A stretch of 64,000 bases of DNA from Deltaproteobacteria bacterium (GTDB taxonomy: Bacteria; Desulfobacterota; Desulfomonilia; UBA1062). This document shows positions 2,047-9,544 of the stretch, one piece after another. The translations under genes were made by a program, and so were the position numbers. The stretch is from contig JAKPPU010000170.1 in assembly GCA_029547185.1 (NCBI GenBank), positions 1-64,000 on the forward strand, written 5' to 3'. The notes beneath the pieces were generated by a model. That model saw only the letters and a program-made list of their open reading frames with translations, was not told where the DNA came from and searched no databases. Numbering within the stretch: the stretch's first letter is position 1; every line of letters begins with the position of its first letter.

Positions 2047-2718
2047 CTAGAGGCTGTTTACATACTGGTAGAGCATCTCGGTGAGCTCTTCGATGAGGCG
2101 CTCCTTGTTCATGGGCGAATCGAGGAATTTTACCGCGTGGGCGATGTTCTCCACTGAGCTGTGGATGACCTTCGACACCTCCTGCAGGTCTTCGGGTTTT
2201 CTCTTGTGACAGTAGGGCTCCACGAGCGAGCTGATGATGAGGATCTGCTCCTGCTCGACCTCATCGAAGAGCTTCTTCACCTCGGGGTCCGAGAACTTGA
2301 GGACGAGGGCCTCCTTGTGGAAGGAGGGGTGGAGGTCGAATACCTTAAACGCCTTGCGGATGTGTTCTCTGATGTTGTCCTTGAGAGAGATCGTAGCATC
2401 CGTCTGCAGCGAGTAGATGTCCGTAACGAAAAGCTCGAGGTGCTCGCGGAGGATTTCGAGGAACAGGGTTTTCTTGTTTTCGAAATAGCTGTAGAAGGTC
2501 CCGATGGAGACCCCGGCCTGCCTGGCGATCTCGTTTGAGCTCGTGCCGTTTATCCCCTTGCGCGCAAAGAGATCCCGGGCCGCTTCCATGATCTTGAGCC
2601 GTCTTTCCCTGCTCCGCTGCTGCCTGGGGATACGAATCCTCATGAGCGCCCCGCGTATAAGAGACAGGCCTTCACTTCCCTCATGATCCGCACCTGTTGT
2701 TGCCTCATATGATTGCAT
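2047..2718 (-). CDS. TetR/AcrR-family transcriptional regulator
   Basis: 223 residues; ATG 2718 has GGAG four bases upstream, while an internal ATG at 2643 is a possible shorter start. The N-terminal TetR helix-turn-helix is clear at about residues 40-85 (IMEAARDLFARKG, then SSNEIARQAGVSIGTFYSYF). The C-terminal ligand domain is all-helical and not diagnostic. The gene is divergent from the SDR/SCP2/TPP/ADH operon starting at 2952. Two copies of TGAG-N6-CTCA lie between them, one across the operon promoter, so it most likely represses that operon and possibly itself. The ligand is unknown; an acyl-CoA or aromatic intermediate would fit the operon but is a guess. Confidence 0.85.
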   Translation of the reverse strand: MQSYEATTGADHEGSEGLSLIRGALMRIRIPRQQRSRERRLKIMEAARDLFARKGINGTSSNEIARQAGVSIGTFYSYFENKKTLFLEILREHLELFVTDIYSLQTDATISLKDNIREHIRKAFKVFDLHPSFHKEALVLKFSDPEVKKLFDEVEQEQILIISSLVEPYCHKRKPEDLQEVSKVIHSSVENIAHAVKFLDSPMNKERLIEELTEMLYQYVNSL

Positions 2719-2782
2719 CTTTCTCCATCAGATTTATTATTAAGAGAACTAATACCAGGACGAGGATGTGTCAAACATAAAG

Positions 2783-2796
2783 TGAGTAATTGCTCA
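2783..2796. promoter_or_regulatory. Candidate TetR operator 1 (TGAG-N6-CTCA)
   Basis: Inverted repeat TGAGTAATTGCTCA, same half-sites and spacing as the repeat at 2815-2828. The centres are 32 bases apart, about three helical turns, on one DNA face. It lies just upstream of the -35 box at 2806. Assignment to the neighbouring TetR protein is inference. Confidence 0.55.
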
Positions 2797-2805
2797 TGTT
2801 TAGCC

Positions 2806-2834
2806 TTGACAATATGAGCTTTGACTCATATTAT
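2806..2834 (+). promoter_or_regulatory. Sigma-70 promoter of the SDR/SCP2/TPP/ADH operon
   Basis: Perfect -35 TTGACA at 2806-2811, 17-base spacer, and -10 TATTAT at 2829-2834. Transcription would start about 2842, leaving a leader of about 110 bases before the ATG at 2952. The spacer contains an inverted repeat that a bound repressor would occlude. Confidence 0.75.
2815..2828. promoter_or_regulatory. Candidate TetR operator 2 inside the promoter spacer
   Basis: TGAGCTTTGACTCA, extended outward by matching ATA/TAT to an inverted repeat at 2812-2831. It fills the spacer between the -35 and -10 boxes and overlaps the -10, the classical position for repression. It shares TGAG-N6-CTCA with the repeat at 2783-2796. 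Confidence 0.6.
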
Positions 2835-2951: not shown

Positions 2952-3932
2952 ATGAAGGCACTGGTTACCGGGGCAACCGGGTTCATTGGCTCGGTTCTCA
3001 CGAAAGACCTCATCGGGCAGGGACATCAGGTGAGGGCCTTGGCCCTCCCGGGCGAAAACACGACAGCGCTTAAGAAGCTCGGGGTCGAAGTTCTCGCCGG
3101 TGACCTCCTGAAGAGAGAGACCATCACAGGGATCTGCGACGGCATCGACACGGTCTTTCACCTTGCCGGGCGCGTCACCGACTGGGGCACCAGGGAACAG
3201 TTCTACAGCGCAATCTACGACGCCACGATGAACCTTCTCCAGGAGGCGGCAGGCAGGGCCTCGAGGTTCGTCTACATAAGCTCGATTGCCGCGATCGGCT
3301 TCGGCCGACACATGAAGGGCATCAGGGAGACCGATCCCGCATTCAAATCCGGCATCCCCTACAACGACGCCAAGCTCGATACGGAAAAGCTCGTGAAGAG
3401 CTACCACGACGGAGGCAGGATCGCCTGCACCGTCATCCGGCCGTCTAATGTGACAGGCCCGGGCAGCGTCTGGGTGAGGGACATCGTCGAGAAGATGATG
3501 AGCATGCCCCTGCCTCTCATCGACGGCGGCCGGTACAGCTCCAGCTTCATCTATGTCGACAACCTCGTGGACGGCATCATCCTGGCAGGGACGCTCGACG
3601 TCGCGAAGGGAAAGACGTATCACCTGCGGGATGACTGGAATGTGACCTGGAAGCAGTACATCGGCGATCTCGGGTCGTTCGTCGGCAGGAAGCCCATAGG
3701 GAGCCTTCCCTACGGCCTGGCCCGCGCGCTGGGCATCCTGTTCGACCGAGTCTGCACTCCGCTCGGGCTTCGGCCGCCGATCACGCGGATGGGCATCGAG
3801 ATCATAGGCCGCGACAACGATGTCGACACCTCTCTGGCTCGGAGCGAGCTGGGATGGAAGACGAGGATCCCGTATCCCGAGGCTATGGAGAGGATAGGGG
3901 CCTGGGTAAAAGAGACCTACGGGAAAGGATGA
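2952..3932 (+). CDS. NAD(P)-dependent extended SDR (epimerase/dehydratase family)
   Basis: 326 residues from ATG 2952, five bases after AGGAGG (2941-2946); a GTG at 2946 overlaps that site and is unlikely. The extended SDR nucleotide motif GATGFIG is at residues 7-13. The usual active-site region follows: SSIAAIGFG then YNDAKLDTEK, where the expected YxxxK reads as Y-N-D-A-K. The sequence resembles the 3-beta-hydroxysteroid dehydrogenase/dihydroflavonol reductase branch. First gene of an operon with SCP2-like, TPP-enzyme and zinc-ADH genes, under the promoter at 2806-2834. It likely oxidises or reduces a hydroxy/keto group on the same substrate the operon handles; the substrate is not identifiable. 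Confidence 0.85.
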   Translation: MKALVTGATGFIGSVLTKDLIGQGHQVRALALPGENTTALKKLGVEVLAGDLLKRETITGICDGIDTVFHLAGRVTDWGTREQFYSAIYDATMNLLQEAAGRASRFVYISSIAAIGFGRHMKGIRETDPAFKSGIPYNDAKLDTEKLVKSYHDGGRIACTVIRPSNVTGPGSVWVRDIVEKMMSMPLPLIDGGRYSSSFIYVDNLVDGIILAGTLDVAKGKTYHLRDDWNVTWKQYIGDLGSFVGRKPIGSLPYGLARALGILFDRVCTPLGLRPPITRMGIEIIGRDNDVDTSLARSELGWKTRIPYPEAMERIGAWVKETYGKG

Positions 3933-4002
3933 CGGCCGGGGCCTTCAGGGGAGCTGTCTCCCGAGGGCCACGGCTGCACACATTACGATCGAGGAGGTAT
4001 CC

Positions 4003-4359
4003 ATGCAATTATCACTGCTTCTCTACATCTTATCGTTGAAGCTCCAGATTGCTGCAAAGATGAACAAGGCCTTCCGCAACTACATCGGCACCGTCCAGCT
4101 CAAGATCCTCATCAAGACCGCTGACGGAAAGTGGGGGAGGCTCTTCGTGTTCGACAAGGGGAAGGTGACCTCCATAGGCGGAGGCAATCACAATTGCGAT
4201 GCCGCGCTCGTCTGGTCCGATCCGGGGACCGCCTTCAAGACCATGGTCAAGGCAAGCGACGAGGCCACGTTCTATGCCGCCGCCGCCGGCAAGGTGAAGG
4301 TTGAGGGCATGGCATACTACATCCAGTGGTTCAATGACGGGGTCAAGCTCACCATGTAG
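4003..4359 (+). CDS. SCP2 sterol-binding-domain-like small protein
   Basis: 118 residues; ATG 4003 follows GAGGAGG. The body matches an SCP2-type lipid-carrier fold: LKILIKTADGKWGRLFVFDKG, then a CDAALVWSDPGTAFKTMVK segment and a glycine/alanine-rich end KVKVEGMAYYIQWF. Such proteins bind acyl chains, sterols or acyl-CoA. The first 15 residues are hydrophobic (LSLLLYILSLKLQIA), so it may associate with the membrane. It is 70 bases after the SDR gene and 70 before the TPP enzyme in the same operon, suggesting a hydrophobic substrate or product is carried between these enzymes. Confidence 0.65.
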   Translation: MQLSLLLYILSLKLQIAAKMNKAFRNYIGTVQLKILIKTADGKWGRLFVFDKGKVTSIGGGNHNCDAALVWSDPGTAFKTMVKASDEATFYAAAAGKVKVEGMAYYIQWFNDGVKLTM

Positions 4360-4429
4360 CTTCACGTATCGTCGCTTTTCGCTCCGGTGCGGCCGCGAGC
4401 CGCATAAAATCACTCTGAGGGGGATACAT

Positions 4430-6100
4430 ATGACACAGATACTCGGCGGTCACCTGGTTGGAAAATATATGAAGGAAGTCGAAAAGGTCGACACGGTCTT
4501 CTGCATATCGGGAGGCCACATCGAGGCGATCCTCGACAGCTTCACGGAATACAGGATACGCACCATCGACGTGCGGCACGAGCAGGCTGCCGCCATGATG
4601 GCCCAGGCCTGGTCGGTCTACACGGGCAGGCCCGGCGTCTGCCTGGTGACGGCCGGCCCCGGCTTCACCAATGCGCTCACCGGCATCGCGAACGCCTATC
4701 TCGACAACGCGCCGCTCGTGGTGCTGTGCGGCAGGCATCCCTTAAGGGACGATCTGAAAGGCGCGCTCCAGGAGATGAACCAGATGGACGTCGTAAAGCC
4801 CATCACCAAGTGGGCCGCCACCTGCTACGAGACGAAGCGCATCCCCGAGTACCTCAACATGGCCTTCAGGCACGCGGTCGAGGGCAGGCCGGGGCCTGTC
4901 TTCCTCGAGCTGCCGCCCGACATCCTGAACGTCAAGGTCCCCCTCGAGAGGGTGCCCATGATCACCCGCATGACGCGCAAATATACGGTCCACCCGGACG
5001 ACTGGGACCTCAGGCAGGCCGCCGACATCATCAACATGGCGAAGCGGCCCCTGTTCATCGGCGGAAGCGGCATCGGCTTGAGCTGCTGCAGCGCCTCATT
5101 AAGCCAGTTCATCGACAAGTCGGGGATTCCCTTCATCCTCCTGAACTACGGCAGGGGCGAGCTCCCGGACAACCACCCGATGTCCCTGTGGGATATCGGG
5201 AACGTGGGGATCCAGCTCGGCATCACCCAGGCGGACGTGATCGTGGCCGTGGGCTTCCGGTTCAACTGGCTCCTCCAGTCGGGCGCCATCATCCCGCCCC
5301 AGACCAAGGTCATCCGCATCGACATCGACCCGCACGAGGTCGACCGCAACCGGGTCGCCGACGTGGGTCTCGTCGGGGACGCCTCTTCGGTGCTGAGCCA
5401 GCTCATCCCGCTCATCAAAAGGGGCGAGCACAGCGAATGGATAAAGACGCTGCGCGCCGCAAGCAACGCCTTCCTCGACCCCGAGCTCAAATTGCGGGTT
5501 GCGCCCTCGAGCCCCATCCACCCGATCCGGCTCGTGGCCCAGATCCAGAAGTTCGTCGGAGACGACGCCATCTACGTGGTCGACGGCGGAGACACCCAGT
5601 ATTTCGGGCTCACCGGCTTCTTCTCGAAAGAGAAGGCAGGGGTCATGGCCACGGCGGCAGGCCTGCTGGGCTGCCTGGGCACGGGCATCCCCTTTGCCAT
5701 GGCCGCCAAGCTCGCCAGGCCGGACAAGAAGGTTGTGCTCCTCCAGGGCGACGGCTCCTTCGGGTTCAACTCCATGGAGTTCGACACCATGGTCCGTCAC
5801 AACATACCCGTGGTGTGCGTGGTGAACAACGACACGGCCTGGGGCATGATCAAGCACAGCCAGGAGCTCTCCATCGGCTGCGACCGGCTCCAGTGCGCCG
5901 AGCTCGGCGAGCGGCACTACGAGAAGATGGTCGAAGGCCTGGGCGGCTACGGCGAGTTCGTCACGAAAGACGAGGAGATCATCCCGGCGCTCGAGAGGGC
6001 TTTTCAGTCAGGCAAGCCCGCCTGCATCAACGTCATGACCGACCCGACCGTGACGAGCCCCGCGACCCCGCTCTTCTACCAGTCGCTCAAGATGGATTGA
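4430..6100 (+). CDS. Thiamine-pyrophosphate-dependent enzyme, acetolactate synthase/2-hydroxyacyl-CoA lyase-like
   Basis: 556 residues, the usual length of the family. ATG 4430 follows GAGGGGG; an upstream in-frame stretch from 4301 overlaps the SCP2 gene and is not coding. Three TPP domains are in order. The N-terminal pyrimidine-binding domain has the catalytic Glu in VRHEQAAAMMAQAW and the VTAGPGFTNALTGIANA motif. The central domain is near residues 195-330. The C-terminal pyrophosphate domain has GDGSFGFNSMEFDTMVRHNIPVV, the GDGS...N metal motif. The ilvB-like family also includes glyoxylate carboligase, oxalyl-CoA decarboxylase and 2-hydroxyacyl-CoA lyase. No small regulatory subunit lies nearby, which argues against valine biosynthesis. 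It probably forms or cleaves a C-C bond on an operon intermediate. Confidence 0.85.
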   Translation: MTQILGGHLVGKYMKEVEKVDTVFCISGGHIEAILDSFTEYRIRTIDVRHEQAAAMMAQAWSVYTGRPGVCLVTAGPGFTNALTGIANAYLDNAPLVVLCGRHPLRDDLKGALQEMNQMDVVKPITKWAATCYETKRIPEYLNMAFRHAVEGRPGPVFLELPPDILNVKVPLERVPMITRMTRKYTVHPDDWDLRQAADIINMAKRPLFIGGSGIGLSCCSASLSQFIDKSGIPFILLNYGRGELPDNHPMSLWDIGNVGIQLGITQADVIVAVGFRFNWLLQSGAIIPPQTKVIRIDIDPHEVDRNRVADVGLVGDASSVLSQLIPLIKRGEHSEWIKTLRAASNAFLDPELKLRVAPSSPIHPIRLVAQIQKFVGDDAIYVVDGGDTQYFGLTGFFSKEKAGVMATAAGLLGCLGTGIPFAMAAKLARPDKKVVLLQGDGSFGFNSMEFDTMVRHNIPVVCVVNNDTAWGMIKHSQELSIGCDRLQCAELGERHYEKMVEGLGGYGEFVTKDEEIIPALERAFQSGKPACINVMTDPTVTSPATPLFYQSLKMD

Positions 6101-6104
6101 CGCC

Positions 6105-7316
6105 ATGAAGGCCCTGACGTTCAATGTAACCGTCCCCAATTTCCTGGTGCTCCAGGTGCTGGGAAGGGTGAACAGGAAGTTCTTCTACGACGGCCCCTTC
6201 TCCACGGTGAGGCTCGTCGATGTCCCGGAGCCCGGGCTGCCGGGAAGCGACTGGGTGAAGATCAGGATAAAGCTCTGCGGGTTCTGCGGGAGCGACGTGA
6301 ACCTCATTCAGGTGAAAGACTCGCCCATGGCCTCGCCCTTCACCTCCTTCCCCTGCATATTCGGCCACGAGGTCTGCGGAGAGGTCGTCGAAGCCGGGAG
6401 CGGCGCTGCCGATTTCTCGAAAGGCAACCGGGTGACGGTCAATCCGGCCCTGTCCTGCGTGCCGCGGGGCATTGCCCCGGTCTGTGCACCCTGCGCCGCA
6501 GGAAGGCCCGGGAACTGCGAGAAGGTCGCCGAAGGCGGATTCTCCCCGGGCATGTTCACGGGAATCTGCAAGGACATCGGAGGAGGGTTCGCGGAGTTCA
6601 TGGTGGTGCACAAGTCCCAGCTCCACCGGGTCCCGGACGGGGTGAGCGACGAGTCCGCCGTCCTCACCGAGCCGCTGGCAGTGGGCCTCCAGGCCGTGCT
6701 GGACAACAAACCGGCAGAGTCCGACAGGGTCCTCGTCATCGGCGGAGGCGTAATCGGGGCCATGATCGTCAAGGCCATACGCGGGCTGGGGATCGGCTGC
6801 TCCATCACGGTGGCCGAGCCCAACTCCTTCAATGCCGAGTATGTCAGGAGATCGGGCGCCGACCACATCGTCTCCGGCAGCATCATAGAGGCTGCCGAGA
6901 GGATAACCGGCGCAAAGGCCTACAAGCCCATGCTCGGCGAGCGCATCGTCCAGGGCGGGTTTGAAAAGGTGTTCGACACCGTGGGCCACTCCCCCACGCT
7001 CCAGACGGCGCTCATTGTCACGGCAACCGGCGGGACCGTGAGCCTCGTGGGGATCGGCAACAAGGTGACCATCGACCCCACCCCCCTGTGGCTCAAGCTC
7101 CAGACCGTGAAAGGCTGCTACGCCTACGGCATAAACGATATCGGCGGCGGCCCAGTGCACGTCTTCGAGACCGCGCTCGATCTCATGGACAAAAAGAAGA
7201 TCCACGTGGAGGACATGCTCACCCATACCTTTGCCATAGATCAGTACCGGGAGCTCATCGAGGTGAACATGAACAAGGCGGGGAGCAGGGCGATCAAGAC
7301 GGCGATACGCTTTTAG
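6105..7316 (+). CDS. Zinc-dependent medium-chain alcohol dehydrogenase
   Basis: 403 residues, starting four bases after the TPP enzyme stops, so translationally linked. Catalytic zinc ligands are visible in CGFCGSD (about residue 64) and GHEVCGEVVEAG (about 88). A cysteine-containing loop (SCVPRGIAPVCAPCAAGRPGNC) sits where the structural zinc lobe lies in the family. The Rossmann motif is VIGGGVIGAMIVKAI at about 207. Slightly longer than typical members (about 350), with extra N-terminal residues. It should oxidise or reduce an alcohol/aldehyde with NAD(P), last step of this operon. Confidence 0.85.
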   Translation: MKALTFNVTVPNFLVLQVLGRVNRKFFYDGPFSTVRLVDVPEPGLPGSDWVKIRIKLCGFCGSDVNLIQVKDSPMASPFTSFPCIFGHEVCGEVVEAGSGAADFSKGNRVTVNPALSCVPRGIAPVCAPCAAGRPGNCEKVAEGGFSPGMFTGICKDIGGGFAEFMVVHKSQLHRVPDGVSDESAVLTEPLAVGLQAVLDNKPAESDRVLVIGGGVIGAMIVKAIRGLGIGCSITVAEPNSFNAEYVRRSGADHIVSGSIIEAAERITGAKAYKPMLGERIVQGGFEKVFDTVGHSPTLQTALIVTATGGTVSLVGIGNKVTIDPTPLWLKLQTVKGCYAYGINDIGGGPVHVFETALDLMDKKKIHVEDMLTHTFAIDQYRELIEVNMNKAGSRAIKTAIRF

Positions 7317-8581: not shown

Positions 8582-9544
8582 GTGCCGCCATGGGTGTCAA
8601 GGGTGAAATATCGCGGATGCTTTTTATTTCATCGAGAGCTCTTTGAGATCCGGCCACAGCCGGACGACTTTGCCGTCAATAGGCAGCACATTGCCGGCAC
8701 GGCTCAAAAACACGTTCGTCACATCGGCATCGGCAATAATGATGCAGCCGGCAGCAATATCCTTTTCACGGTGATGATGAACTGCCCCACTGTCGGGGCT
8801 GCGTTCGATGCGCTGTCCAGATACCATAACCTGATGAACGATGCTCTGCGCCCCAGGGTCAAACTGGAACAGGGCCATGCGCTTCTGGGCTGGGAGGTCA
8901 CGCATGAAGGCGTGCGCTTCGGACGCCATGCAACCGAGACGCTCCTGTCCATCTTAAACGCGCTATTTGTCCGCCTCACCGAAAAATCCTGCAGGCCCGA
9001 GGCCGTACACTTCCGGCATAAAAGGCCCGCGGACACCGCCGAGCACGCGAGGATCTTCCGGGCTCCCCTGCATTTCAGCCGCCCGGAGAGCTTTCTGGTC
9101 CTCGCGGCAGAAGACCTGAACCGGCCGGTCAAAGCGGCAGACCCCGAGCTCCTGGGTGCACTCGAAGCCTTTGCAGACGGCCTCCTTAAGAGGCGGTATC
9201 CCGACGGCACCTGGTCGGGCAGGGTGCTCCGGTCCATCTCAAAGGGCCTGACCGGGGAACGCCCCACCATCGAGTCCGTCTCGCGCGACCTGATAGTGGG
9301 CAGCAGGAGCCTTCAGAACAGACTGAAGGAAGAAGGCACCACATTCACTGCGCTGCTCGACAGGGCGAGAAAGGAATTTGCCCTCTCGCTCATGAAGAAC
9401 GCGAAGATGTCGTTGTGCGACATGGCCTTTCTGCTGGGATTTTCCGAGCAGAGCTCTTTCACCCACACCTTCAAGCGCTGGACCGGCTCGACACCGGGCG
9501 CGTACAGGAAGGGCAGGGCCCGGGAAAAGAGCCAGCTGTTTTAA
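8582..9544 (+). CDS. AraC-family regulator, probably 5'-truncated
   Basis: At most 320 residues: a stop at 8576-8578 precedes a GTG at 8582 that has no ribosome site and is only 18 bases from the divergent aminotransferase start. The C-terminal two-helix AraC domain is good (SVSRDLIVGSRSLQNRLKEEG; SLCDMAFLLGFSEQSSFTHTFKRWTG). An arabinose-binding-type sensor domain is recognisable from NILFTVMMNCPTVGAAFDALSRYHNLM (about residue 59) onward. The first 55 residues do not look like the family, and the first ATG in frame is at about 8774. The gene probably lost its start and promoter. A GC-rich terminator at 9699-9730 follows. Confidence 0.55.
   Translation: MPPWVSRVKYRGCFLFHRELFEIRPQPDDFAVNRQHIAGTAQKHVRHIGIGNNDAAGSNILFTVMMNCPTVGAAFDALSRYHNLMNDALRPRVKLEQGHALLGWEVTHEGVRFGRHATETLLSILNALFVRLTEKSCRPEAVHFRHKRPADTAEHARIFRAPLHFSRPESFLVLAAEDLNRPVKAADPELLGALEAFADGLLKRRYPDGTWSGRVLRSISKGLTGERPTIESVSRDLIVGSRSLQNRLKEEGTTFTALLDRARKEFALSLMKNAKMSLCDMAFLLGFSEQSSFTHTFKRWTGSTPGAYRKGRAREKSQLF
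8624..8755 (-). pseudogene. Possible C-terminal remnant of an unrelated gene, antisense to the AraC 5' end
   Basis: Minus-strand residues reading IIIADADVTNVFLSRAGNVL then PIDGKVVRLWPDLKELSMK and a stop at 8624 look more like protein than the overlapping plus-strand frame. Upstream (past about 8755) this frame becomes the shadow of the AraC gene. It may be the tail of a gene joined to the AraC fragment by a deletion. Weak evidence. Confidence 0.25.

Follow-up and report, generated by a model that had tools for sequence, protein, structure and literature searches.

The question raised by this locus is whether two short inverted repeats, found between a TetR/AcrR-family gene and a divergent four-gene operon in a 64,000-nucleotide stretch of DNA (the window) from a bacterium of Syntrophaceae type, are the operators of the adjacent regulator. 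We consider it highly probable that they are, and that the TetR protein would block the operon, and probably its own gene, until a ligand relieves the repression. The basis is the position of the repeats, their overlap with a promoter, their co-conservation with the regulator, their absence from regulator-free operons, and their persistence after regulator and operon have been split. The features of the locus are collected in Table 1.

Table 1. Features of the tetR-operon region, in window coordinates.
Feature	Position	Strand	Description
tetR	2047-2643	-	TetR/AcrR-family regulator, 198 aa; ATG at 2643
tetR-side element	2749-2774	-	TTGACA-N14-TATTAG; possible tetR promoter
Candidate operator O1	2779-2800	none	AAAGTGAG-TAATTG-CTCATGTT; core TGAGTAATTGCTCA at 2783-2796
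Operon promoter -35	2806-2811	+	TTGACA
Candidate operator O2	2811-2832	none	AATATGAG-CTTTGA-CTCATATT; core TGAGCTTTGACTCA at 2815-2828
Operon promoter -10	2829-2834	+	TATTAT
Four-gene operon	2952-7316	+	Four co-directional ORFs
SDR, first operon gene	2952-3932	+	NAD-dependent epimerase/3-beta-HSD-type, 326 aa; PF01370, PF01073
118-aa conserved protein	4003-4359	+	Fold of its low-confidence model weakly resembles SCP2
ThDP-dependent enzyme	4430-6100	+	556 aa; PF02776, PF00205, PF02775
Alcohol dehydrogenase (ADH), last operon gene	6105-7316	+	Zinc-type, medium-chain, 403 aa; PF08240, PF00107

An earlier, sequence-only reading had placed a pair of TGAG-N6-CTCA repeats between the TetR gene and the operon, and both are found there; a pattern search of the 64-kb window returns exact TGAG-N6-CTCA only as the cores of O1 and O2. 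The interval from the tetR start codon to the SDR start codon is 308 nt. O2 is a perfect 22-mer palindrome, with arms of 8 bp, AATATGAG and CTCATATT, around an N6 centre. O1 is weaker, its arms AAAGTGAG and CTCATGTT departing from AATATGAG-N6-CTCATATT at three of 16 positions, so the “identical architecture” claimed for the two repeats holds for the core and fails for the full arms. The promoter described in the same reading is borne out: TTGACA-N17-TATTAT matches the consensus at 11 of 12 positions and is the sole promoter-like match between positions 2600 and 3000. Since O2 starts on the last base of TTGACA and ends at the fourth base of TATTAT, it fills the 17-nt promoter spacer. O1 is 4 bp from the TTGACA of the tetR-side element and 5 bp from that of the operon promoter. 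The core starts of O1 and O2 are 32 bp apart, or 3.05 turns at 10.5 bp per turn; the three-turn spacing that had been claimed therefore stands in the window, and outside the two-site loci described below it is not maintained.

The comparison set consisted of 42 genomes of the class Syntrophia. At a threshold of E <= 1e-30, tetR orthologs occur at 12 loci in 11 of the 42 genomes, the window's included, and the eleven other proteins are 55-76% identical to that of the window. One of the genomes, G003, belongs to the same genus as the window, and another, G021, has two tetR-operon loci in one assembly, on C291 (L061; TetR 72% identical to that of the window) and C207 (L060; 70%). The prediction was exposed to homologous intergenic regions lacking the repeats; these were looked for, and the 22-bp motif was found upstream of tetR at every one of the 12 loci. 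With a site alignment seeded with the window motif and a profile trained without the clade under test, the best site at each locus was matched by none of 300 shuffles. Eight of the 12 loci have at most one mismatch to AATATGAG-N6-CTCATATT, and the clade formed by G001, G004, G005 and G006 has three to four. Across the loci both arms are conserved and the 6-bp centre is variable.

A second site, at 32-33 bp, is present at seven of the 12 loci, namely the window, both G021 copies and the G001/G004/G005/G006 clade. In the window and the two G021 loci none of 300 shuffles reaches its score; in the clade, with its degenerate sites of 3-6 mismatches, the second one is weak, its score being reached by 10, 2, 11 and 4 of 300 shuffles. 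At the two-site loci the spacer is filled by one site, and the other adjoins the -35. A single site is found at the remaining five, which are G003, G022, G016, G019 and the tetR locus of G013. The first four of these keep the operon, and there the sole site precedes the -35 by 3-4 bp, so that a blocked spacer cannot be a feature of every locus. The -35 (TTGACA or TTGACT) is 3-6 bp from the O1-like site at 11 of the 12 loci, the exception being G013, where no operon adjoins tetR, and the promoter boxes score 10-12 of 12 at ten loci and 9 in G001. Helical phasing was considered as a general rule and rejected, given the single-site loci, a spacing of 60 bp at the moved operon of G013 and one of 28 bp in G076. 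The clade with the recognition-helix variant SIGTFYNYFRNK (G001, G004, G005 and G006) has altered sites, and loci with SIGTFYSYF keep TGAG; a covariation of recognition helix and operator is suggestive, its basis being four closely related loci.

On the tetR side, TTGAC[AT]-N14-TA[TC]TA, with exactly 14 nt between the boxes, lies upstream of tetR at seven of the 12 loci (the window, L006-L008, L013, L014 and L036), and the TACC of this element (given as the complement) is invariant in eight aligned loci. A 14-nt gap is abnormal for a sigma-70 promoter; the alternative at 17 nt has poor -10 boxes.

The same geometry could serve a TetR protein acting as an activator or dual regulator, with O1, centred some 51 bp ahead of the likely transcription start, recruiting polymerase and O2 exerting negative feedback. 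All 12 tetR loci carry an O1-like site, which precedes the -35 by 3-6 bp wherever the operon adjoins and which stands alone at five of them, and FasR, which NCBIfam labels an activator, is among the fold neighbours of the TetR protein. However, promoters with boxes so near the consensus rarely need an activator, a spacer-sited O2 is hardly compatible with polymerase binding, and the studied members of the TetR family are mostly repressors, according to PMC3511530. We regard an activating role as improbable and prefer repression from both sites.

The assignment of the operators to this regulator finds a seldom available natural test in G013, where regulator and operon are split. The G013 tetR (68% identity) is on contig C47 (L057/L089), where one good site and the tetR-side TTGACA are kept, the tetR-side element staying with tetR though the operon is gone; all that remains beside it is a ThDP-enzyme-like stretch of 49 residues. 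The complete SDR/118-aa/ThDP/ADH operon is on contig C49 (L088), with identities of 73, 75, 86 and 75%. Upstream of its SDR gene are two copies of the motif, the first 4 bp from a TTGACA, like O1 elsewhere, and the other 60 bp downstream. The motif thus tracks the separated regulator and its presumed target alike.

Thirteen of the 42 genomes carry, by the thresholds applied, the ThDP or SDR gene and no tetR ortholog. Ten of these are testable, G002, G010 and G018 being left out as having hardly any upstream DNA, and in none of the ten is the motif found near the operon genes, within the nearest 400 nt upstream or all of the upstream DNA where there is less. The best match there has 5-7 mismatches within 400 nt (320 nt for G039). 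Over longer stretches, the best match of G007 has seven mismatches in 1,053 nt, and G014 has one with four mismatches at 712 nt, with one good half only. In G007, G026, G031 and G039 the upstream stretch reads partly or wholly as a coding region like that of the 118-aa protein, so the head of the operon may lie further up; the other six genomes are the cleaner controls. Together with the 12 tetR loci and the G013 split, these ten operons lend support to the earlier prediction of one regulator and its site, and, since the sites are kept both at the regulator gene and at the moved operon in relatives, the proposed switch is well supported.

The palindromes might instead belong to another regulator, for example one of the CRP/FNR type, the neighbouring TetR being incidental. 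Such an owner would fit with the frequency of TGAG-N6-CTCA, found at 86 places in the window's 4.19-Mb genome, and with the degenerate pattern occurring, at up to one mismatch, in 19 of the 42 genomes, some of them without a tetR ortholog. However, the motif follows the tetR ortholog, at 12 of 12 loci versus none of the ten testable regulator-free operons, and marks both halves of the split system; there is no further convincing full-motif site in the genome, unlike what is expected of a global regulator; and the CRP-type site, TGTGA-N6-TCACA, has a spacing unlike that of the window motif. We judge this ownership very unlikely and retain the adjacent TetR as the reader of the sites.

Similar operators are also seen beside more distant TetR genes. 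An exact copy of the degenerate motif lies just upstream of a different TetR gene in G012, on C62 (L085, 2490-2511), whose product shows 32% identity across 105 N-terminal residues, so other TetR proteins may read similar operators, and several TetR proteins of this group may use them. Outside the class, G076 has a TetR homolog (40%) beside relatives of the 118-aa and ThDP genes, and our reading of its sequence finds the layout repeated: the spacer of a TTGACA-N17-TATTCT promoter holds the palindrome AATATGAACTAAAGTTCGTATT, and another palindrome follows 28 bp downstream.

Within the window's own genome the full 22-mer, unlike its core, is distinctive: an exact match occurs once, as O2, with O1 at three mismatches. 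At up to three mismatches there are eight places, O1 and O2 included, against five for a reversed-pattern control; the other six, each with three mismatches, are close to the control count, and a genome-wide regulon of the 22-mer was rejected. The most attractive of the extra matches, G000:C173:3221, lies upstream of a gene whose sequence we read as that of an iron-type alcohol dehydrogenase; it was rejected as a target since it is not conserved, the best matches in nine relatives having 5-8 mismatches, and is probably due to chance. The genome search for further copies that had been suggested thus gave no convincing extra target, and the regulator appears to be local, acting on one operon plus its own gene.

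Taken by itself, the window sequence is improbable only to a moderate degree. Two copies of TGAG-N6-CTCA in the 308-nt intergenic region were seen in none of 20,000 dinucleotide shuffles. Two copies in the whole window are not rare (46 of 100 shuffles), which, together with its frequency genome-wide, means that the core alone is not special. With arms and spacer left free (4-bp arms, a spacer of 0-12, both palindromes sharing their arms), a repeated palindrome arises in 71 of 1,500 intergenic shuffles, and a single sequence is therefore no proof of operators. That the repeats are accidental or structural, such as an mRNA hairpin, draws on this last count and is extremely unlikely, as it is already contradicted by the comparative data, with both arms conserved around a variable centre, and as an element upstream of the likely transcription start would be absent from the operon mRNA.

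For repression by TetR, we propose that a dimer bound at O2, in the -35/-10 spacer, would deny RNA polymerase access to the promoter of the SDR-118aa-ThDP-ADH operon. Bound at O1, between the two TTGACA boxes, a dimer would probably repress tetR, giving autoregulation, and may also add to the repression of the operon. TetR would be released by a pathway metabolite, for which an acyl-CoA or a related thioester is the likeliest candidate.

The kind of switch is an ordinary one, and the present system is a fresh instance of it. As in Tn10 tetR/tetA, a divergent TetR-family gene and its target have two similar palindromes among their promoters; two such sites in the divergent promoter region are found in the window and in six of the 11 other tetR loci, and a site overlapping the target promoter is found in O2, within TTGACA-N17-TATTAT. 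In Tn10, as described in PMC3037858 and PMC3511530, a repressor bound at tetO2 shuts off tetA and no more than reduces tetR, which can still be transcribed when tetO1 is free; the roles proposed for O1 and O2 resemble this division of labour between tetO1 and tetO2. As to cooperative binding, the Tn10 model paper states that there was no sign of it (PMC3037858). Unlike Tn10, whose target is an efflux pump, the window system would control enzymes through another operator sequence, its loci vary in spacing, with five of 12 having a single site, and its operators are predicted from sequence. The 308-nt intergenic distance also exceeds 200 bp, the limit that PMC3511530 gives, with named exceptions, as a rule of thumb for a TetR regulator to control its divergent neighbour.

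What gives the case its value is strong comparative evidence, together with a prediction for an operon of unassigned substrate. Snowprint, as outlined in PMC10858194, predicts regulator:operator pairs from genomes by conservation; our aim and logic are similar, and differ in adding a natural regulator-operon split and regulator-free controls. The core motif, in six spellings, was not found in the literature searched by text, and nothing that the searches brought up was recognised as this TetR/operator system. The result is a specific regulator/operator pair, cheap to test, in Syntrophia, known here mostly from assembled environmental genomes, and it offers a handle on the substrate of the operon, as the compound releasing the repressor is probably a substrate or product of the pathway.

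The TetR protein has an N-terminal helix-turn-helix (Pfam PF00440 TetR_N, 61.9 bits, cut-off 24) and a C-terminal ligand-binding/dimerisation domain (PF17918 TetR_C_15, 30.7 bits, cut-off 26.8). Its AF2 model (pLDDT 84.7) has nine helices and an all-helical C-terminal domain, and matches EthR and FasR over about 180-190 residues. The closest named fold neighbours are EthR (Z about 20), mycobacterial FasR (Z 19.2, rmsd 2.1, 178 residues aligned), DesT (Z 17.2, rmsd 3.0, 191 aligned) and Bacillus FadR (Z 16.5, rmsd 2.9, 179 aligned), several of which were solved with acyl-CoA. In common with the acyl-CoA sensors FadR, FasR and DesT, the window system has an enzyme of CoA-thioester type, here in the operon. 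The fold kinship and a ThDP enzyme like 2-hydroxyacyl-CoA lyase (HACL) and oxalyl-CoA decarboxylase suggest a CoA thioester as the ligand; EthR scores at least as high as the other three, so that the ligand may be of another class. The protein misses all NCBIfam cut-offs, its best match being Bacillus FadR, and it differs from that regulator in scoring 54.5 bits against a cut-off of 200 for the Bacillus-type equivalog NF053878 and in an operon where no beta-oxidation gene is seen.

Among the operon products, the ThDP enzyme belongs to the 2-hydroxyacyl-CoA lyase / oxalyl-CoA decarboxylase / acetolactate synthase group. Its nearest solved sequences are HACL-like and oxalyl-CoA decarboxylase enzymes (1.4e-80), it reaches no NCBIfam cut-off among the matches listed (25 families), and with 338.9 bits against the 600 of the 2-hydroxyacyl-CoA lyase equivalog NF058623 it is only a relative of these enzymes. 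The 118-aa protein, perhaps of the SCP2 type, has no Pfam match even at E 10 and no PDB sequence match; the top fold matches of its low-confidence model (pLDDT 60.5) are SCP2 types, with a best Z of 6.4, a weak indication. The SDR gene is found in 17 of the 42 genomes at E <= 1e-90.

More tentatively, and with a good deal of doubt, one may picture a lineage-specific TetR with its own operator code governing a CoA-thioester carbon-shortening or acyloin-type pathway in Syntrophia, made up of the SDR, a lipid-carrier-like protein, the HACL-like lyase and the alcohol dehydrogenase. A shared operator would be wedged between two divergent -35 boxes and the spacer site repeatedly added or lost, so that the strength of the regulator would evolve by operator number. 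Further along the window, an AraC-type ORF at 8582-9544 seems, from an impression of its translation only, to be without the normal N-terminal part and is possibly a truncated gene.
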